This document shows positions 10,852 to 31,162 of a stretch of 32,854 bases of DNA, piece by piece (within the stretch, counting starts at the first letter, position 1; each line of letters begins with the position of its first letter). The notes beneath the pieces were generated by a model, which saw nothing but the letters and a program-made list of their open reading frames with translations, made no database searches and had not been told where the DNA came from. The translations under genes were made by a program, and so were the position numbers. Source of the DNA: Candidatus Gastranaerophilales bacterium (GTDB taxonomy: Bacteria; Cyanobacteriota; Vampirovibrionia; Gastranaerophilales; Gastranaerophilaceae); assembly GCA_944322665.1 (NCBI GenBank), contig CALUPM010000016.1, positions 1 through 32,854 on the forward strand. The letters are read 5' to 3'.

Positions 10852-10938
10852 ATGATATTAAGACTTCGACGAAAATCTATCATAAAAAAAGCGAATGCCC
10901 CGCGCGTTAGACTGATGAACTTAATCTGGGGCTTGTGA
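10852..10938 (+). CDS. 28-residue basic mini-protein or second leader peptide
   Basis: An ORF of 28 codons starting MILRLRRKSIIKKANAPRV and ending NLIWGL, with a strong ribosome binding site AAAGGAAAG 4-5 nt before the ATG. It contains five arginines and three lysines. It lies between the arginine attenuator and the 487-aa gene, so it would be made only on readthrough. TCTATCA (10876-10882) pairs with TGATAGA (10936-10942) across the stop codon, and GCCCC (10897-10901) with GGGGC (10928-10932). It could be a second control layer or a real small protein. Confidence 0.5.
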   Translation: MILRLRRKSIIKKANAPRVRLMNLIWGL

Positions 10939-10998: not shown

Positions 10999-12462
10999 AT
11001 GATACCCGCAATTTCAGCAAGCAAAATATACTCAACACTCGGAAACGAAAATTCTTTAATACCCCTTGCGATAAAAGATATCGCAAACAGCACCGGATTA
11101 ACGGCAGCCTCCTACCTTGCAGGCGACGAGGCTGAAGGAAGAGACAGATTTATAGACGAATTCGGAACGCAGGCAATCTGGCTTTTCGGCATTCCGGTTT
11201 ACAAAAAACTCCTTGATTTAGGACTGTTTAAAACTCTGGGATTTGACCCGAAAGTCGATGTCAGAGTTCTAAAAAACCCAGATATTTTTGAAAAAGCAAA
11301 AGAATATGCCGCAAATGATAAAATTAAAGCATCTTTGGAAAAAATCGGCAAATCTCAGAAAAATATAAAAATCTTTAAAGGTCTGACATTCGGGAAATTT
11401 GTAGCCTCGACTTTCCTTACAATCGCTTCATACTACGGGCTTACGAAATTCAGACACAAGCACACTGAAGAACATATCAAAGAAGAATTCTTAAAAAAAC
11501 AGGCTGCACTTAAAACGACACCGCACAAAATTAAACCTGCCTTTGCCGCACCTTCGCTTCAAAAAGTACCGTCAGCCTTCGGCGGTGTCCACAACAGCAC
11601 AAAAACTGCTCAAAAACAGGATAAAAATCCGTCCTTCGGCGGCATTCAGGATTTTATGTTCAGCCCGACAAAAAACCTTATGATTGTCGACGGCTCAATC
11701 ACTGCAGAAAGAATTTTTGAATCAAGAAACCCGCAGGACACCATCGGATACATTGTAAAAGAAGGTAGTTTCTGGGCGTTTATGTATCTTCTCGGCGGCA
11801 GAATTCAGAAACACGTTGAAAACAGCACCGAAAAAAAACACAACATGAATATCAAGCTTGACGCAAGGGTTATAGAAAGCGAAGAACTTAAAAATGCGCT
11901 TAAAAACAAAGACCTTCCGACACTTCTTCAGACATTTTCAAACCTTAAAAAAGATGTCGATATTTACGACTTTATCTGCAACCCGAATAACAAAGATAAC
12001 ATTATAGTCAAAATGGCGAAGATGTCTGATATTATAAAAGTTACGCCGACACCTGCAAAAGACACTGACAGAACTTTTGCAAAACTCAAAAACACAATTC
12101 TCCAGCCCAAAGACCTCAACAATCCTATTGACACAAGAGCGTTCATAGATATTGATGCCGTAAAATCAATCAACGAAAACCTCGGAAAACTTTACGAACA
12201 GTTCAGCGCATACAAGGCAAACGCCGGTACAGGCAAGCAGGATGAAGAACTTTTAACCTTCTTTCTTAAAGACCTGAAAAAATACAAACGGATATCAATT
12301 CTCAAAAACATCGGAGCCTGCATAGGCGCACTCGGAATTGTATGTCCTGCGATTATGCTGGCTTTAAGGTTTATAAACAAAGACAACAGAAATTTTAAAG
12401 TTAAAGAAGACATAGAACAAAAGCTTGCGGCAGATATTCAGGCAGGGAAAATCAAAGTTTAA
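10999..12462 (+). CDS. Unknown membrane-associated protein, arginine-attenuated paralog
   Basis: 487 residues, AAAAGGA 8 nt before the ATG. Not recognised. It is a clear paralog of the protein at 25477-26844. Shared blocks in order: start with SALGN-like STLGNEN; RDRFIDEFGTQAIWLFGIP (paralog RERIIDEYLTSAVWLGGIP); GFDPKVDVRVLK; FGKFVASTFL; VDGSITAERI; NIKLDARVI; DTRAFIDIDAV; and a C-terminal hydrophobic helix near 440-465 (LKNIGACIGALGIVCPAIML). Two or three further hydrophobic stretches lie near 55-70 and 130-150. The middle is a charged linker with two FGG motifs (SAFGG, PSFGG). It is probably membrane-bound, with large cytoplasmic loops. Upstream is a complete arginine leader/attenuator, implying induction on shortage of charged arginine tRNA. 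Function unknown. Confidence 0.7.
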   Translation: MIPAISASKIYSTLGNENSLIPLAIKDIANSTGLTAASYLAGDEAEGRDRFIDEFGTQAIWLFGIPVYKKLLDLGLFKTLGFDPKVDVRVLKNPDIFEKAKEYAANDKIKASLEKIGKSQKNIKIFKGLTFGKFVASTFLTIASYYGLTKFRHKHTEEHIKEEFLKKQAALKTTPHKIKPAFAAPSLQKVPSAFGGVHNSTKTAQKQDKNPSFGGIQDFMFSPTKNLMIVDGSITAERIFESRNPQDTIGYIVKEGSFWAFMYLLGGRIQKHVENSTEKKHNMNIKLDARVIESEELKNALKNKDLPTLLQTFSNLKKDVDIYDFICNPNNKDNIIVKMAKMSDIIKVTPTPAKDTDRTFAKLKNTILQPKDLNNPIDTRAFIDIDAVKSINENLGKLYEQFSAYKANAGTGKQDEELLTFFLKDLKKYKRISILKNIGACIGALGIVCPAIMLALRFINKDNRNFKVKEDIEQKLAADIQAGKIKV

Positions 12463-22184: not shown

Positions 22185-22964
22185 ATGGGAATCGAAATAA
22201 ATTCCTTATTACGTGCGTACGGACTAAACAATACAGGATTTTCAGACCGCACAACTCCTGTCGGCTTCAGACAGCAGACGAAAGAGGACAGTTTTGAAAG
22301 TCATTCGCCCGAAAGATTTACAAACGAAGCTGTTATCACAAAGCTTGTCAATTCCAACCCGAAAATCAAAGCTATTTTGAAAGACGTTGAGGTTAAGCCT
22401 GTTTTGAATTTTAAGGATTTAAAAGTTATTTTAGACAATCACTGCACGGATGTCAGAAATATTTCAGCGGGAATAGTTCAAAATCTGCCGTTTTCACTCA
22501 AGAATTTTGCAGATGAAACAGCTTTGTCAGATGCTTCCTATCTTCATGATATCGGAAAAGTTCTTATCCCGCGTGAGATTTTGAATAAGCAGGGCAGGCT
22601 TGATGACAGAGAAACCCGCATTATGCACAAACACTCAGAACTTGGTTACGAAATTCTGAAAAACACCAACCTTGACAAAACAACACTTAATCTTATCCGC
22701 AACCACCACCAGAACGCCCAAAAAAGCGGCTATCCGTTTGTGAACAAAGATTTCAGGGCGGATTTGAATTTACAAATACTTAATATTGCGGACAAATACT
22801 CGGCACTCACTGAAAAACGTCCGTATAAAGACGCTTACACTCCAAAACAGGCGCTTACAATTATTTATGCAGACGTAAAAGACGGAAAGCTTCATCCGTT
22901 TGTATTCAAAGCACTTGCAAATTACGTAAACAGTGTGCAAAATGCTGATTTACAGCGGGCATGA
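22185..22964 (+). CDS. HD-GYP domain phosphodiesterase (probable cyclic di-GMP hydrolase)
   Basis: 259 residues. The HD-GYP domain spans about 75-250: H86 and downstream DVRNIS, YLHDIGK (H121, D122), HKHSELGYEIL (about 148-158), RNHHQNAQKSGYP (H174, H175, G182-Y183-P184), and ILNIADKYSALTEKRPYKDAY. The metal-binding histidines and the GYP motif are all present, so activity is likely. The N-terminal 70 residues have no receiver or other sensor domain; they start MGIEINSLLRAYGLNNTGFS, polar and mostly disordered. It would be cytoplasmic. The symporter gene follows after 64 bp. A weak upstream AAGGTG is 12 nt from the ATG, so the start is less certain. Confidence 0.85.
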   Translation: MGIEINSLLRAYGLNNTGFSDRTTPVGFRQQTKEDSFESHSPERFTNEAVITKLVNSNPKIKAILKDVEVKPVLNFKDLKVILDNHCTDVRNISAGIVQNLPFSLKNFADETALSDASYLHDIGKVLIPREILNKQGRLDDRETRIMHKHSELGYEILKNTNLDKTTLNLIRNHHQNAQKSGYPFVNKDFRADLNLQILNIADKYSALTEKRPYKDAYTPKQALTIIYADVKDGKLHPFVFKALANYVNSVQNADLQRA

Positions 22965-23015
22965 TTTGAACTGTTACAAATATACGTCGCTTAAAACGAT
23001 TATTTATGTTTGTAT

Positions 23016-23021
23016 TATAAT
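23016..23021 (+). promoter_or_regulatory. -10 box directly before the symporter start
   Basis: TATAAT ends 7 nt before the ATG at 23029. AAGGAG (23023-23028) touches the ATG with no spacer, which is too close to work as a normal ribosome binding site. A leaderless messenger fits better, unless translation begins elsewhere. Confidence 0.45.
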
Positions 23022-23028
23022 TAAGGAG

Positions 23029-24552
23029 ATGAGTTTAGACAACCTAATAGACAGTTTTTTATCACCAATAGCCGACAAAATTTCAGGGATAATCTTTTGC
23101 TCCGTTAATATCAACGGGGTGGAAGTTCAGCTTCTTGTTGCGCTTTTGATGGCAGCGGCGCTTTATTTTACCTTTCGCACTGGCTTTATCGGGATCTGGG
23201 GCTTTAAACACGCCATAAAACTCATTACGAAAAACTACGAGCACAAAGACCTCGTTCAAAGGAAAAAAAGGGGTGAAGTTTCGTCATTTCAGGCGCTGAC
23301 AGCAACGATTTCAGCTTCTGCCGGAATCGGAAACGTGGCAGGGTCTGCTGCGGCGGTTTCAATCGGAGGCCCCGGGGTAATTTTCTGGATGATTGTTGCC
23401 GGATTTTTCTCTATGGCATTAAAATTTGCAGAAGTTTTATTAGGGCTTAAATTCAGACAGGTTCAGCCTGACGGAACAGTTGACGGCGGCCCGATGTATT
23501 ATATTCAAAACGGACTTAAAAATCATAAAATATTCGGCAAATTCGCGCCGTATTTATCAAAAATTTACGCACTATGCTGTATTTTTGCGATGATTGGCGG
23601 CTGGAATTTGTTCCAGATAAATGCAATGACAACACAGATTACGGAAGTCACGGGAGGAAAAGACAGTTTCTTTGCCGAACAAAGCTGGCTTTTAGGGCTT
23701 ATTGTTGCGGTTATAACTTATTTTACAATCATCGGCGGCATCAAGGCTATCGGGAAATTCACATCAAAAGTAACGCCTGTTATGTGCAGTTTGTATGTCA
23801 TGACAGCGTTTGCCGTATGCATTTGCAACATGCACCATTTTCCGCATGCAATTGCTCTTGTTATCAAAGAAGCTTTCAAACCGCAGGCGCTTGCGGGCGG
23901 AATGTTTGCGTGCATGCTCTGGGGCTTCAGAAGGGCTATGTTCGCCAATGAAGCAGGACTTGGCACGGCTCCGATTGCATTTTCTGCCGTCAAAACAAGC
24001 AAACCTGCAGTTCAGGCGTTCATTGCCATGCTCCAGCCGTTTGTTGATACGGTTATTGTCGGAAGCGCAACGGCTTTTGTAATCGTAATTTCCGGCGTTT
24101 ATCTTGACAACACCGGATTAGCCGGAATTGAACTCACATCAAAAGCCTTCGGGTCTGTGTGCCCGTTCTTTCCTGTACTGCTGACCGTCATGGCTAGCTG
24201 CTTTGTCTTATCAACCATGCTCTGCGGGTCTTATTACGGAATCAAAAGCTGGAACTTCCTCTTCGGAAACTCAAAAGCAACAACCAGAACGTTTCAGATT
24301 ATATACTGTCTGTTCATAGTAATCGGCTCTGCAATGAACTTTAAGAGCATTATAAACCTTTCCGACGCCTTCACACTATTTTTAGCCGTGCCGAATTTGT
24401 TTGCGGTTTTCATACTTTCGGAGGTTGTTATAAAAGATTTGAAAAGATATTGTAAAAAATATAACGTAGGATTATTCAAAAATAACACACATAAACAAGG
24501 AGAGAGAAACAATGAAAGAACAATGTCTGGAGATAGTAAGACAAAAGTGTAA
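23029..24552 (+). CDS. Sodium:alanine symporter, AGCS family
   Basis: 507 residues from the ATG at 23029; the 32 codons upstream in frame are not hydrophobic family sequence. Imports alanine or glycine with Na+ across the inner membrane. Family blocks: FRTGFIGIWGFKHAI, SSFQALTATISASAGIGNVAGSAAAVSIGGPGVIFWM, VDGGPMYYIQNGLK, CMLWGFRRAMFANEAGLGTAPIAF, and a long set of membrane helices to the C-terminus. GIGN and the NEAGLGTAPIA block are the AGCS signatures. The C-terminal tail (about 490-507) is polar. The stop lies inside the next gene (41-bp overlap). Confidence 0.9.
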   Translation: MSLDNLIDSFLSPIADKISGIIFCSVNINGVEVQLLVALLMAAALYFTFRTGFIGIWGFKHAIKLITKNYEHKDLVQRKKRGEVSSFQALTATISASAGIGNVAGSAAAVSIGGPGVIFWMIVAGFFSMALKFAEVLLGLKFRQVQPDGTVDGGPMYYIQNGLKNHKIFGKFAPYLSKIYALCCIFAMIGGWNLFQINAMTTQITEVTGGKDSFFAEQSWLLGLIVAVITYFTIIGGIKAIGKFTSKVTPVMCSLYVMTAFAVCICNMHHFPHAIALVIKEAFKPQALAGGMFACMLWGFRRAMFANEAGLGTAPIAFSAVKTSKPAVQAFIAMLQPFVDTVIVGSATAFVIVISGVYLDNTGLAGIELTSKAFGSVCPFFPVLLTVMASCFVLSTMLCGSYYGIKSWNFLFGNSKATTRTFQIIYCLFIVIGSAMNFKSIINLSDAFTLFLAVPNLFAVFILSEVVIKDLKRYCKKYNVGLFKNNTHKQGERNNERTMSGDSKTKV

Positions 24553-25168
24553 CGGATGCAAAGGCTGCGCTTTAGCCAAAACCCGTAAAAACGTAGTATT
24601 CGGCGACGGCAACCCCGAAACAGCCAAAATCGTTTTTATCGGTGAAGCCCCCGGTGAAATAGAAGATGAATGCGGAAAACCTTTTGTCGGACGCGCAGGA
24701 CAGCTTTTGGACGAATTTCTTGCTGCTGCAGGAATTTCCAGAGAAGATGATTTATATATAACAAACACTGTAAAATGCAGACCGCCTGAAAACAGAGTTC
24801 CGGCTGACGAAGAAAAAGAAGCATGCCGCAAATTCTTAAATGCCCAGATTGATTTTATAAAACCGCGTGCTATTGTTCTTTGCGGTGCAACTGCCTTAAA
24901 ATCCTTCGTTGAACTCGACAAGAAAACAACAATTTCCAAAATCAGAGGTCAGTGGATGTCAATTACGGTTGACGGAGTTGAATATCCGGCAATGACTATT
25001 TTCCACCCGTCATATCTTTTGAGAAACCACTCTCTTGCTGAAAATGCACCGAGAACGTTGATGGCAAGGGATTTGAGAGAAATCAAAAACACTTATCTGA
25101 ATGATGTTCAAAGATTTACCGATGTTGTAACCGGTGAAGCTGAAAACAGAGAATTGGCCTGTGTTTAA
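24512..25168 (+). CDS. Family 4 uracil-DNA glycosylase (iron-sulfur)
   Basis: 218 residues. Removes uracil from DNA arising from cytosine deamination. AAGGAGAG precedes the ATG at 24512, so this start is well supported even though it overlaps the symporter by 41 bp. Cysteines C13, C16, C19 near the N-terminus with those in VKCRPPENR and EACRKFL supply the 4Fe-4S ligands. Motif 1 is IGEAPGEIEDECGKPFVGRAGQLLDEFL; the second active-site block is FHPSYLLRN. Both match the family exactly. Neighbours are unrelated by function; a strong terminator follows. Confidence 0.92.
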   Translation: MKEQCLEIVRQKCNGCKGCALAKTRKNVVFGDGNPETAKIVFIGEAPGEIEDECGKPFVGRAGQLLDEFLAAAGISREDDLYITNTVKCRPPENRVPADEEKEACRKFLNAQIDFIKPRAIVLCGATALKSFVELDKKTTISKIRGQWMSITVDGVEYPAMTIFHPSYLLRNHSLAENAPRTLMARDLREIKNTYLNDVQRFTDVVTGEAENRELACV

Positions 25169-25476: not shown

Positions 25477-26844
25477 CTAGTCAATAATTCCGGGTTCCAG
25501 TTTAGATCCGGTGTACCATTCTCTGAACACGTATTGAACTTTCGGCAGACAGTATGCAAGAAGAAAACTGCTTAAACCGACGTTTGTGAGGATATTCAGA
25601 GATTTTACAAACTTAGCTTTTTTAGCGAATTTCTGAACTGCATCTAATGTGGTTGCGCCTGCCGAAGTTCTTGCTTTAGAGGCAAATTCTTCAATTGATT
25701 TTTTGAAATTTGCAAGTTCTTTTATATCCACATAAGCCTTCGGGTCGCGAATTCCGTTCTTTTTAACTTTTGGATTTTCATAGAGAAGTTTTACTTTCTC
25801 AAATTTTGCAGCGTATTTTGTAAACAAAGAATCCGGATTTTCGTCAATAAATCTCAAAAGTTCTTTTCCATCGCAGGATTTTGGAAGTTCAAGAGTCCGG
25901 TCAGCGATCTGGTTTAAAAATTCTTTATCCTCAAGCATGAGAGGATCAAGTTTAACGTCTATATTAAGCGCTTTGTTGGCTGCCGAGTCGAGGATTTTTT
26001 CTATATATTTCGGCGCAACATAGTTCAAAAACATCATCCCGAGCATTTTAAAACCTAAGTCGACAGCTTCATTTTTTTTGCGGGAAGTAATAATACGCCC
26101 TGCAGCATAACCTCCGTCAATCGCTGCCATCTTCTGATAAGTTGTAAAATTAGCAACGGCTGAAGCCATATTGCCGCCAAACGTAACAGGAGAAGACTTT
26201 TTCAAAGACATTGAAGAAAACACATCTCTGTTTAAAGCGGTAAACGGAACTGCGTTTGAAGGGGTGGAGCCTGAAATCTGATTTTTCTCTGCGCGTTTTT
26301 TCTGAGCGGCTTTTGTTTTTGCGGTAAGTCCGAAAACCATCTTCGGAATTACAAATCCCATCAGCGCTACCGGAATCACAGTAGAAGCGGCAAATTTTGC
26401 AGACAGAAGCTTTTCGTACAAACCCTTGCTGCCCTTAACTTTTTTCAAATCTTCAATTGATTTTTCAATTTTACCGGCAAGTTCGCCTTTTATTTCGCCA
26501 TTTTTGAGTTTTTCCGAGAATGTTTTGACGTTATAATCCAGTCCCTGACAATCACTTTCTTTAAATAGCTTCAGATTGACATCCGGATTCAGCCCTTTCT
26601 TTTTAATCACAAATTTGTTGATTAAGCTTTCAACAAGCGGGATTCCGCCGAGCCACACAGCAGACGTCAAATATTCATCTATAATTCTTTCTCTTGTTGC
26701 AAGAAACGCAACGTTTTTGTCGTCTTTATTTTCCTGATAGGTGAGGTAAACTTTCGACGGAATTTCTACCCCGCAGTCACGGAGGATAAGAGGATAAACG
26801 CTGCTGGTATTTCCTATTGCCGATATTATATTTGTAAATGTCAT
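25477..26844 (-). CDS. Unknown membrane-associated protein, histidine-attenuated paralog
   Basis: 455 residues. Not recognised, but a divergent full-length paralog of the protein at 10999-12462: SAIGNTSS, RERIIDEYLTSAVWLGGIP, GLNPDVNLKLF, SAKFAASTVIPVALMGFVIP (helix, about 150-175), AIDGGYAAGRI, DVKLDPLMLEDKEFL, DPKAYVDIKEL, and a C-terminal hydrophobic helix SLNILTNVGLSSFLLAYCLP (about 415-435). The middle contains SPVTFGGNM, echoing FGG in the other copy. It should sit in the membrane with a large cytoplasmic portion. It is preceded by a histidine leader peptide and a terminator/antiterminator switch, hence probably induced when charged histidine tRNA is scarce. No biosynthetic motif is seen, and no histidine-synthesis gene is near. 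Confidence 0.7.
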   Translation of the reverse strand: MTFTNIISAIGNTSSVYPLILRDCGVEIPSKVYLTYQENKDDKNVAFLATRERIIDEYLTSAVWLGGIPLVESLINKFVIKKKGLNPDVNLKLFKESDCQGLDYNVKTFSEKLKNGEIKGELAGKIEKSIEDLKKVKGSKGLYEKLLSAKFAASTVIPVALMGFVIPKMVFGLTAKTKAAQKKRAEKNQISGSTPSNAVPFTALNRDVFSSMSLKKSSPVTFGGNMASAVANFTTYQKMAAIDGGYAAGRIITSRKKNEAVDLGFKMLGMMFLNYVAPKYIEKILDSAANKALNIDVKLDPLMLEDKEFLNQIADRTLELPKSCDGKELLRFIDENPDSLFTKYAAKFEKVKLLYENPKVKKNGIRDPKAYVDIKELANFKKSIEEFASKARTSAGATTLDAVQKFAKKAKFVKSLNILTNVGLSSFLLAYCLPKVQYVFREWYTGSKLEPGIID

Positions 26845-26894
26845 TTTGTTTCTGTTTCTCCAATTCTAAATTTTTACCGCTGCCGCAAAAGAGG

Positions 26895-26937
26895 CAAAAA
26901 ATAACCTTTCACGCTTTTTATCCCGGGAAAGGCTATT
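26895..26937 (-). terminator. Attenuator terminator (histidine)
   Basis: RNA 5'-AATAGCCTTTC (26937-26927) pairs with GAAAGGTTATT (26910-26900) over 11 bp with one G-U; a 16-nt loop separates them and a T-run follows (26901-26896). It is 51 bp before the ATG of the 455-aa gene. Confidence 0.75.
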
Positions 26938-27003
26938 TCTTATTTAGAATTGAATTGATTTTAAAATTTAAAGCGCACCTATCAATTCACAGCCTTTCTC
27001 GGG
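26922..27003 (-). promoter_or_regulatory. Attenuator antiterminator (histidine)
   Basis: CCCGAGAAAGGCT (RNA, 27003-26991), inside the leader peptide ORF just after the His codons, pairs with AGCCTTTCCCGGG (26934-26922): 13 positions, one mismatch. A second paired block GAATTGAT / ATCAATTC (26981-26988 with 26952-26959) extends it. The 26927-26934 strand is shared with the terminator, so the structures exclude each other. Confidence 0.75.
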
Positions 27004-27047
27004 TTGCGATGATGGTGATGATGAAATTTTAAAATCATATTTTTCAT
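26982..27047 (-). CDS. 21-residue histidine leader peptide
   Basis: ORF with CGGAG 8 nt before the ATG. It starts MKNMILKF, has five consecutive histidines (CAT CAT CAC CAT CAT, 27009-27023), then RNPRKAVN and TGA. Compare the histidine-operon leader of enterobacteria, which has seven histidines. A ribosome stalled at the histidines leaves 27003-26991 free to form the antiterminator; one that reaches the stop covers it and the terminator forms. It has its own promoter, and the gene behind it is not a his gene. Confidence 0.75.
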   Translation of the reverse strand: MKNMILKFHHHHHRNPRKAVN

Positions 27048-27066
27048 TATTATTTCTCCGAATTTC

Positions 27067-27095
27067 ATTTTATATTAAAAAAAATTATTTTTCAA
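27067..27095 (-). promoter_or_regulatory. Promoter of the histidine leader
   Basis: On the minus strand TTGAAA (27090-27095), 17-nt spacer, TAAAAT (27067-27072). Transcription would start near 27060, right at the ribosome binding site of the leader peptide. It begins at the 3' end of the gene at 27104. Confidence 0.65.
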
Positions 27096-27103
27096 GACTC
27101 CTG

Positions 27104-27628
27104 TTATTTTCCGGCGATTTTGCTTTTTGCAGTGTAATACAAATCAATAACAGTATCGTCATCCATTTTTTGAACGGCTTTTACTACATCTTTTTCGTTA
27201 TTTTTTGTGTAAAGCAATGCGCGGACAATTACGTTATCCGCCATTGCGACAAGCCCTTTTCTTTTTTCTTCAATAACTTCTTTCAAGATTTTTTCTGCTT
27301 TTTCAATATCCTCAGGCTGAATTTTGAACCACGCTGAAAGAAGGTCGCCCTTTTTGGCCTGCGCAATCGGCTTTTCATAAGCTGTTGTAATTTCAGGATT
27401 TTTTAACATAAAAGTATCATAATCCCTGCCTGTTGCAAGATAAAGTTCTGAACTGTCAAGACCGGAAGCACTCAGTTTGTCAAACTGTTTTTCATAAGCC
27501 GGCATATGTTTTGTCAATTTCTGTCCGTACATCTCATCACAAATTTTCATTGCAACTTTGCCGTCAATCTTTATTCCGAAAGCCGGTTTATTCGTATTAT
27601 TGTTTGGAGTAAACGTACTTATTTGCAT
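27104..27628 (-). CDS. Small lineage-specific protein with N-terminal PxFG tag (copy 3)
   Basis: 174 residues, AAAGGA before the ATG. N-terminus MQISTFTPNNNTNKPAFGIKID carries a tag ending PAFG. The body is charged and helical (IEKAEKILKEVIEEKRKG), with LKNPEITTAYEKP near the middle. It lies in a three-gene tandem of related order: tag, short helical body, a NP-x-I motif, and a DIxxAE block (here EDIEKAEKIL). No signal peptide or membrane helix. Not a known family; probably a lineage-specific protein. It is the last of the three tandem genes, 21 bp after the middle one. Confidence 0.6.
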   Translation of the reverse strand: MQISTFTPNNNTNKPAFGIKIDGKVAMKICDEMYGQKLTKHMPAYEKQFDKLSASGLDSSELYLATGRDYDTFMLKNPEITTAYEKPIAQAKKGDLLSAWFKIQPEDIEKAEKILKEVIEEKRKGLVAMADNVIVRALLYTKNNEKDVVKAVQKMDDDTVIDLYYTAKSKIAGK

Positions 27629-28951: not shown

Positions 28952-31162
28952 ATGTCAGAAAAACCGCTTTTTGATGAAATAAGAGAAAAATTAATAGCCC
29001 AGAACAGGGACGAAGAAGATATAAAGCAGATAGAAAAGGCTTATCTTTTTGCAAAAAAACTTCACGAAGGACAATACCGGATTTCAGAAGAACCATATAT
29101 TATCCATCCGGTTGAAGTTGCCAAAATTCTTGTTGACCTGAAGGTTGACACCCACACACTTATTGCGGCATTTTTGCATGATATTCTTGAAGATACTGAC
29201 ACAAAACCTGAAGAAATCAAAGAACTTTTCGGGGAAGATGTTCTGACCCTTGTGCAGGGAGTTACAAAACTCGGCAAATTACAGTTCAAATCCAACGAAG
29301 AGCGGCAGGCGGAGAATTTTCGCCGGCTTTTTATTGCAATGGCAAATGATATCAGAATAATTTTTCTGAAACTTGCAGACAGGCTTCACAATATGCGCAC
29401 GCTTAATTTTATGGCGCCAAATAAACAGCAGAAAATTGCACGTGAAACTCTTGATATATTTGCACCTCTTGCAAACCGTCTCGGTATCGGGCGTATTAAG
29501 GCTGAACTTGAGGATCTTTCTTTAAGATACCTCGAACCTGACAAATATTTTGAAATTGCCCAGCTTGTGTCGCAGACAAAGGCTGAAAGAGAAATGACCG
29601 TTAATCTTTTGATAGATAAGATTTCTCAGGATGTCAAAAAAAGCGGGATTAATGCGCAGATTACAGGCCGTGCAAAACATTATTACAGTATTTACAGCAA
29701 AATGAAACGGCTGAATATAGCATTTCATGATCTTTACGACATTACGGCAGTCCGCGTAATAGTTGATACTGAAAAAGAATGCTACGAAGTTCTCGGGCTT
29801 ATTCATTCGCAATTTAAGCCTATTCCGGGGCGGTTTAAGGACTATATAGCAATGCCCAAGGGCAACATGTATCAGTCTTTGCACACATCCGTTATCGGGC
29901 CGCGCTCAAAGCCGCTCGAAGTTCAGATTAGAACATGGGAAATGCACGAAGTTGCTGAATACGGGGTTGCCGCGCACTGGAGATACAAAGAGAAAGGCTC
30001 CCAGAAAGCCAACAATCCGACAGATATGCAATTCAGCTGGATGCGCAAAATGGCTGAATACGGCAAAGACATGACAAATGCCGAAGACTATGTAAATTCT
30101 GTTAAACTTGACCTTTTCTCGGATCAGGTTTTTGCCTTTACCCCGAACGGCGACGTTCTGGATTTGCCGGTAAATGCAACGCCGGTGGATTTTGCTTACA
30201 GAATTCACTCCGACGTCGGACACAGAACGGTCGGGGCTTTGATTAACGGACGTATCGCACAGCTTGATACAAAGCTCAACAACGGCGATATCGTCGAAAT
30301 TCTGACTTCCAAAACTCAGGCGCCAAGGCTTGACTGGCTTAATTTTGTCGTAACAAAACAGGCTTCTTCAAAAATAAAACAGTGGTTCAAGAAAAATAAC
30401 AGAGAAGACCACATTGAAGTCGGAAAAGCAAACCTTGAACACGAACTTACAAAAGCTGTTTTTGACGAATATGTGAAAAACGGCGAGTTTGACAAGGTTG
30501 CGGTAGCGATGAACTACCAGTCCGGTGATGATCTTTTTGCGGCTCTCGGGTACGGGGAAACAACATTAAACAAAATTATAAACAAACTCAAAAAACCTGA
30601 AAAGAAAACGCCTGAAACCAGTTTTCACACGACCAGAAAGAAAAAATCAGAAAAGGATATTATCGGGCTAGAAGGGCTTATGTATTCCTTTGCACGCTGC
30701 TGCTCACCGATTCCCGGGGAGCCGATTGTCGGCGTCGTAACCCGATCAAAAGGGGTTTCTGTCCACAGGATTGACTGCAAAACTCTCGAAAATGTTCCGC
30801 CGGAAAGAATGATGGATATCCGCTGGTCCGGAGATCATACGACAAAAACCTACAGCACAACTATCCGCGTCGAAACAGCCGAAAAAATGGGACTTCTAAA
30901 AGACATAATTGCTGCAGTTTCCGACAACAACACAAATATAAATTACGCAAACGTCAAATCCAAAAACAACAAAATCGGTATCATAGAACTCGGGATTGAA
31001 TTAAACAATATCGACACCCTTAAAAAAGTCATCAACAGCATACAATCAATTCCTGACGTTTACAGTGTAAAACGTGTACAGACATCTTATGCGCATTCGG
31101 GACAGCCCCGCAAACAGCAGAACAATAAGCCGAAAAACTCAAAACAACATAAAAAAAATTAA
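28952..31162 (+). CDS. Bifunctional (p)ppGpp synthetase/hydrolase (Rel/SpoT)
   Basis: 736 residues. Makes and breaks the alarmone (p)ppGpp during amino acid starvation. HD hydrolase domain: HPVEVA (H52) and FLHDILEDT (H76, D77), with LADRLHNMRTL at about 143-153. Synthetase: KHYYSIYSKMKR, DITAVRVIVD, GRFKDYIAMPKGNMYQSLHT and EVQIRTWEMHEVAEYGVAAHW. TGS domain near 385-450 (VFAFTPNGDVLDLPVNATPVDFAYRIHSDVGHRTVGA), a zinc-finger-type region with CCSPIPGEPIVG, then a C-terminal ACT domain (about 655-725). All catalytic blocks are present, so both activities are likely. It stands alone next to the histidine- and arginine-attenuated paralogs, thematically close to amino acid starvation. Confidence 0.95.
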   Translation: MSEKPLFDEIREKLIAQNRDEEDIKQIEKAYLFAKKLHEGQYRISEEPYIIHPVEVAKILVDLKVDTHTLIAAFLHDILEDTDTKPEEIKELFGEDVLTLVQGVTKLGKLQFKSNEERQAENFRRLFIAMANDIRIIFLKLADRLHNMRTLNFMAPNKQQKIARETLDIFAPLANRLGIGRIKAELEDLSLRYLEPDKYFEIAQLVSQTKAEREMTVNLLIDKISQDVKKSGINAQITGRAKHYYSIYSKMKRLNIAFHDLYDITAVRVIVDTEKECYEVLGLIHSQFKPIPGRFKDYIAMPKGNMYQSLHTSVIGPRSKPLEVQIRTWEMHEVAEYGVAAHWRYKEKGSQKANNPTDMQFSWMRKMAEYGKDMTNAEDYVNSVKLDLFSDQVFAFTPNGDVLDLPVNATPVDFAYRIHSDVGHRTVGALINGRIAQLDTKLNNGDIVEILTSKTQAPRLDWLNFVVTKQASSKIKQWFKKNNREDHIEVGKANLEHELTKAVFDEYVKNGEFDKVAVAMNYQSGDDLFAALGYGETTLNKIINKLKKPEKKTPETSFHTTRKKKSEKDIIGLEGLMYSFARCCSPIPGEPIVGVVTRSKGVSVHRIDCKTLENVPPERMMDIRWSGDHTTKTYSTTIRVETAEKMGLLKDIIAAVSDNNTNINYANVKSKNNKIGIIELGIELNNIDTLKKVINSIQSIPDVYSVKRVQTSYAHSGQPRKQQNNKPKNSKQHKKN

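Follow-up and report, generated by a model that had tools for sequence, protein, structure and literature searches.

A candidate histidine-responsive leader upstream of an orphan, histidine-depleted protein gene in Candidatus Gastranaerophilales

In the his operon leader of enterobacteria (RF00514), a short ORF with His codons is combined with mutually exclusive antiterminator and terminator helices, and ribosome stalling decides between them. An arrangement of this kind was noticed upstream of a gene for a 455-aa protein in a 32,854-nucleotide stretch of DNA (hereafter, the window) from Candidatus Gastranaerophilales, the gut members of a non-photosynthetic cyanobacterial line. The question raised by this locus is whether the leader senses histidine and, if so, what it controls.

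Leader region and its alternative RNA structures

The elements listed in an earlier note on this DNA were all located on the minus strand, and their coordinates proved to be exact to the base (Table 1). The promoter-like -35/-10 pair, the leader ORF with its ribosome binding site and five His codons, the antiterminator, the 11-bp terminator with a U-run and the overlap of the two helices at 26927-26934 were each found as the note had described them. A TTGAAA-T-rich stretch resembling that of the window was present upstream in the genus. A run of at least five His codons occurred a single time in the genome, namely, in the window leader. A second CAY run, at G000:C4:15246, was rejected as a His run because it was antisense to an Asp-rich repeat.

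Table 1. Features of the leader and its target gene in the window
Feature	Position	Strand	Details and basis
Promoter-like pair	27067-27095	-	TTGAAA 27095-27090, 17-nt spacer, TAAAAT 27072-27067; consensus match 10/12, sequence match alone
Leader ribosome binding site CGGAG	27056-27060	-	Sequence
Leader ORF, MKNMILKFHHHHHRNPRKAVN followed by stop	26982-27047	-	Sequence; His-rich counterpart in 114/114 ortholog upstream regions
Five consecutive His codons, putative sensor	27009-27023	-	Sequence
Strand 2, 5' arm of antiterminator	26991-27003	-	Covariation with strand 3
Strand 2 extension, GAAUUGAU	26981-26988	-	Pairs with AUCAAUUC 26959-26952; strand-2-free fold, modest swap-test support
Tentative pseudoknot strand in antiterminator loop	26970-26976	-	GCGCUUU:AAAGCGU
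AUCAAUUC, partner of strand 2 extension	26952-26959	-	Overlaps anti-Shine-Dalgarno strand; strand-2-free fold
Anti-Shine-Dalgarno strand	26942-26954	-	Pairs with 26871-26859 in minimum-energy fold; covariation, conservation
Intrinsic terminator	26896-26937	-	11-bp, arms 26937-26927 and 26910-26900, U-run 26901-26896
Strand 3, 3' arm of antiterminator	26922-26934	-	26934-26927 common to terminator
Tentative pseudoknot partner of 26976-26970, after strand 3	26911-26917	-	Swap test positive, fixed-register count poor
Shine-Dalgarno GGAG (26861-26858) of the 455-aa gene and sequestering strand (26871-26859)	26858-26871	-	Fold, conservation
Gene of the 455-aa orphan protein	25477-26844	-	All-helical model, three hydrophobic stretches, zero histidine

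The 221-nt leader was predicted to fold with an energy of -58.4 kcal/mol, compared with -38.1 +/- 3.9 kcal/mol for shuffled sequences (z = -5.3). In the antiterminator helix (27003-26991 with 26934-26922), 12 of the 13 positions were paired, the remaining one being an A-C mismatch. In addition, a 13-bp helix that was absent from the list of the earlier note, formed by 26954-26942 and 26871-26859, was found to cover the Shine-Dalgarno sequence of the gene. When the leader was modelled with strand 2 free, the 2:3 helix formed, extended by pairing of GAAUUGAU with AUCAAUUC, and there was no terminator; when strand 2 was covered, both the terminator and the Shine-Dalgarno helix formed. Because the 2:3 helix encloses the anti-Shine-Dalgarno strand and the Shine-Dalgarno sequence lies outside it, the 2:3 and Shine-Dalgarno helices cannot nest together. 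A terminator scan tool with a loop limit of 8 gave no match at the hairpin in the window because the loop of this hairpin is 16 nt long. The antiterminator loop may also pair with the stretch that follows strand 3. Such a pseudoknot is proposed tentatively; the partner-swap test described below was in its favor, but the fixed-register count was not.

Conservation among relatives and proposed mode of action

The leader was compared with its counterparts at 114 orthologs, which came from many genera of the family; as much as 450 bases of upstream sequence was used for each. A short ORF with clustered His codons was found in all 114 regions. At least four His codons within seven codons were present in 104 of the 114 regions, whereas no such cluster occurred in the 114 reverse strands or in 570 dinucleotide shuffles. 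Shared ancestry inflates such shuffle statistics, as it does the Fisher statistics given below. Leaders L022 and L024 contained just three scattered His codons each. The CAN codons inside the run were CAT (473), CAC (31), CAA (7) and CAG (1); thus, the amino acid was kept while the third base alternated between T and C. The residues interrupting the run varied freely among orthologs. Two lineages had His-rich leaders of other types, namely, the MFTPSVKRHHHNHHHCH type (L017, L048, L049, L053 and L086) and the MKTKNQNRFHHHHHHLG type (L082, L090, L091, L104 and L106). In these L017-like and L082-like lineages, the His run was retained and the downstream complementary segments differed, as if the RNA had been rewired around the same sensor. 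Since the run was kept while both its interruptions and the surrounding RNA varied, the His codons are the most constant part of the leader.

Covariation was evaluated on an alignment of 43 diverse sequences (A4). The antiterminator 2:3 was paired in 92.3% of cells, with double changes at nine pairs, and its covariation score was 0.484, compared with 0.282 for shuffled and at most 0.214 for slid alignments. The terminator stem together with the Shine-Dalgarno helix was paired in 93.1% of cells, and the score of this state was 0.334 (shuffled, 0.205; slid, at most 0.126). Columns 103-111 of A4 were common to both alternative structures. In a partner-swap test, each strand was paired with the partner from another species, and the binding energies were compared. 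Swapping weakened the 2:3 pairing from -22.0 to -14.6 kcal/mol, the 3:4 pairing from -12.3 to -7.3 kcal/mol and the Shine-Dalgarno helix from -8.7 to -7.4 kcal/mol, and no change was found for control pairings of equal relatedness (2:4 and loop:SD). The U-run was strong in 75, intermediate in 11 and weak in 18 of 104 relatives, and all helices were still kept in the 18 relatives with a weak U-run. Judging from these comparisons, the output that is retained most widely is the helix over the Shine-Dalgarno sequence of the gene. With a covariance model of the element, one match per genome was obtained in 23 of 59 genomes, always directly upstream of an ortholog, and there was no match elsewhere in the 59 genomes.

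The earlier note had proposed a comparison of homologous upstream regions as a check, and in the relatives the His run is indeed retained, and compensatory changes preserve both of the competing helices. The his-operon logic that it had suggested is supported by the kept run and the covarying alternative helices but needs to be extended to the translation start. On this basis, the leader is very probably a ribosome-mediated, histidine-responsive attenuator. With charged tRNA-His in short supply, the ribosome would stall at the His codons of the leader, and strand 2 would stay free. Strand 2 with its GAAUUGAU extension would then pair with strand 3, which would block the terminator, and the same pairing would trap the anti-Shine-Dalgarno strand, so that the message could be both completed and translated. 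When histidine is ample, the ribosome would reach the stop codon and cover strand 2; strand 3 would then form the terminator, and the anti-Shine-Dalgarno strand would shut the gene's ribosome binding site. The first His codon starts 20 bases ahead of strand 2, and a ribosome halted there should therefore leave this strand free; given the ribosome footprint, a ribosome at the stop codon should cover it. We infer that stalling occurs and that the gene is induced by histidine shortage.

The target protein and the histidine metabolism of its carriers

Orthologs of the 455-aa protein (E <= 1e-60) were carried by 213 of the 383 family genomes. The next gene downstream in the window is convergent; therefore, the regulated unit consists of one gene. 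Searches of the protein against Pfam, NCBIfam and PHROGs gave no family match (two single-member stray matches were disregarded), and the best E value in a sequence profile search of the PDB was 0.27. As far as can be judged from this, the statement of the earlier note that the gene is not histidine biosynthetic holds. The AlphaFold model was all-helical and fairly confident (pLDDT 82), and the protein may be called membrane-like because of its three predicted hydrophobic stretches. The best Foldseek E value was 1.6 and the VIA-align Z score was at most 6.5, which are not meaningful for a helical protein; with respect to known histidine and amino-acid transporters, there was no sequence family match, and at these structural scores a distant relation is possible. 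On one side of the gene lies a divergent RelA/SpoT homolog (28952-31162, plus strand), and on its other flank (22933-25168, plus strand) lie a convergent uracil-DNA glycosylase gene and then a sodium:alanine symporter gene. This neighborhood recurs in about half of 63 loci, as a neighborhood only, without implied co-transcription.

The window also encodes a paralog of the protein (10999-12462), preceded by its own leader ORF, MILRLRRKSIIKKANAPRVRLMNLIWGL followed by stop, at 10852-10938 on the plus strand. A conserved leader peptide ending in NLxWGL-stop precedes family members throughout the order; the pattern was matched in 43 of 59 genomes, and among the matches that were inspected, most lay just upstream of a family member. 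It is likely an arrest-type leader peptide, apparently an undescribed one. In other families of the order (L026, L027, L028, L029, L030 and L031), the closest homologs, with approximately 30% identity, had the NLxWGL leader and no His run. These homologs had a short complementary pair, for example, ACUCAAG and CUUGAGU, right before GGAGG. Some His leaders had the C-terminal sequence NLKGL-stop, and because of this ending, the two leader types may share ancestry.

Orthologs with a His leader contained 5 His in 16,770 residues (0.04%; 38 orthologs, 34 of which had none). By comparison, homologs with another leader had a His content of 0.99% (2-5 per protein), the paralog in the window had 7 His, and the background for long ORFs of this genome, drawn from 400 kb of genome stretches, was 1.39%. 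Residues other than His were similar between the orthologs and the homologs with another leader, and none differed in this way. When 70 ORFs of 400 aa or more were sampled, one more, resembling a TolC-type protein by eye, was His-free; thus, a lack of His in one protein is not unique, and what counts as the signal is that it persists in diverged orthologs. Apart from the target gene, the sampled long ORFs without His were L230:1182-2537 and L235:8000-9121, which by eye resemble a TolC-type outer-membrane protein and a DNA polymerase sliding clamp, respectively, and no obvious His leader was seen for either. It was previously reported that amino-acid biosynthetic enzymes needed in shortage avoid their cognate amino acid (low cognate bias; PMC4209129). 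The depletion found here is similar in that a protein needed in shortage would avoid that amino acid, but the depleted protein has no known biosynthetic role, and the depletion is nearly complete.

Neither hisG nor hisD was found in the source genome or in any of 14 genomes of the genus. In an organism without these genes, the switch cannot be feedback on biosynthesis. Among the 383 genomes of the family, which were mostly drafts and mostly more than 90% complete, hisG was found in 6 of the 213 genomes carrying the gene (207 without) and in 94 of the 170 genomes lacking it (76 without), which gives a Fisher p = 3e-34 that is inflated by ancestry. The same tendency was observed within two genera: in g21, the numbers of genomes with and without hisG were 1 and 11 when the gene was present and 13 and 3 when it was absent (p = 3e-4), and in g6, they were 3 and 11 versus 8 and 1 (p = 0.003). 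In the 40 genomes where both were sought, hisD agreed with hisG. The 76 genomes without the gene and hisG are so classified at the threshold used, below which divergent copies may fall. Because six genomes had both and 76 had neither, the gene does not strictly accompany auxotrophy. It appears, however, that the switch serves mostly histidine auxotrophs and that most carriers have lost the histidine synthesis genes.

In these genomes, the depletion of His and the anti-association with hisG may be regarded as two independent signs of a role in histidine shortage, and the protein is probably part of the response to it. Whether it helps the cell acquire or spare histidine is the weakest step of the explanation, and such a function is suggested only tentatively, at somewhat less than even chances.

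Alternative explanations, known systems and significance

It is improbable, but conceivable, that a His-rich nascent chain, by metal ion binding or within the exit tunnel, stalls the ribosome and flips the same switch irrespective of His-tRNA shortage. Clusters of His are able to bind metals, interruptions of the His runs are frequent (HHxHHH), and the paralog found across the order has another, sequence-conserved leader, NLxWGL-stop, that resembles an arrest peptide. However, the His leader peptide varies freely between lineages both inside and outside the run, and these same lineages have a target that is nearly free of His and tracks the absence of hisG, which a metal sensor would not predict. 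Less probable still, the hairpin may simply terminate the upstream gene (27104-27628), the His run and the short ORF being incidental. The hairpin does lie downstream of this gene on its strand, and no other strong terminator separates the two, but the upstream gene is not the same across relatives, whereas the His run is conserved in all orthologs together with a covarying alternative helix and the Shine-Dalgarno helix. In practice, this conservation refutes such an explanation.

Provided that the leader is a histidine-responsive attenuator, it should be considered whether transcription termination is its sole output, as in a classic his attenuator, with an incidental Shine-Dalgarno helix. 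Consistent with this, the window and 75 of 104 relatives have a good terminator, and the change in predicted Shine-Dalgarno exposure was modest on average (0.42 vs 0.32) and also in the window. Nevertheless, this possibility is unlikely, although it carries more weight than the two above. The 18 relatives with a weak U-run keep all helices, and in such leaders the predicted Shine-Dalgarno opening on stalling was larger (0.30 vs 0.11, p = 5e-4, ancestry uncorrected); moreover, the Shine-Dalgarno helix is conserved and outdoes partner swaps. Since the U-run is strong in just 75 of 104 relatives and the Shine-Dalgarno helix is kept more widely, the attenuator probably controls both transcription and translation start. 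Transcription would be the main lever in the window, and translation may be the main or sole lever in some other lineages.

No Rfam family, including RF00514 (His_leader) and the T-box, matched the window at the gathering score. The leader shares with the his operon leader a short ORF with a His run, exclusive helices and the same stalling logic; it differs in that it occurs in another phylum, has no Rfam match, precedes a gene that is not a his gene, has an extra helix over the Shine-Dalgarno sequence and belongs to an organism without hisG and hisD. In Bacilli, hisZ and a hisS paralog have been described as preceded by histidine leader peptides (PMC2965389), and other Firmicutes have potential histidine attenuators (PMC9413887). 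These leaders likewise have a stretch of His codons and alternative hairpins, but they govern biosynthesis, tRNA charging and known transporters, whereas the present one occurs in a cyanobacterial class and precedes a gene of an orphan family. Histidine transporters of auxotrophic Firmicutes and Actinobacteria are controlled by a His-specific T-box or by HisR (PMC9413887). Histidine sensing is retained after the loss of biosynthesis in these cases too, but by a tRNA-binding RNA or a repressor protein, with known transporters as targets. The actinobacterial LEU element before leuA (PMC1262725) also combines a leader peptide rich in a single amino acid with a candidate pseudoknot and a stem involving the Shine-Dalgarno sequence, although its amino acid is leucine, its target is leuA and its structure is different. 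In the open-access literature, no report on His leaders in this order or before this gene family was found. The principle is thus known, and what is new is the phylum-level setting, the probable translation output and an orphan His-depleted target in organisms mostly without the pathway.

Taken as a whole, the His-leader gene may be the output of a new histidine-shortage system in mostly auxotrophic Gastranaerophilales. An orphan, His-purged membrane protein would replace the lost biosynthesis as a new component of histidine or peptide acquisition, and it would derive from an order-wide family placed under different leader peptides (His run or NLxWGL). This proposal is a possibility to which we give slightly less than an even chance. 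The leader itself, if it acts as proposed, would widen the range of amino-acid leader-peptide attenuation to include gut Melainabacteria as well as organisms unable to make the sensed amino acid, and an orphan family of membrane-like proteins would gain a concrete, testable role. The near-total loss of His from the target, which parallels the leader and the absence of hisG, would constitute an unusually clean genomic record of the amino acid that is limiting for these little-studied gut bacteria. A search strategy is also suggested, in which the genes behind leaders rich in a given residue are screened for proteins depleted in it.
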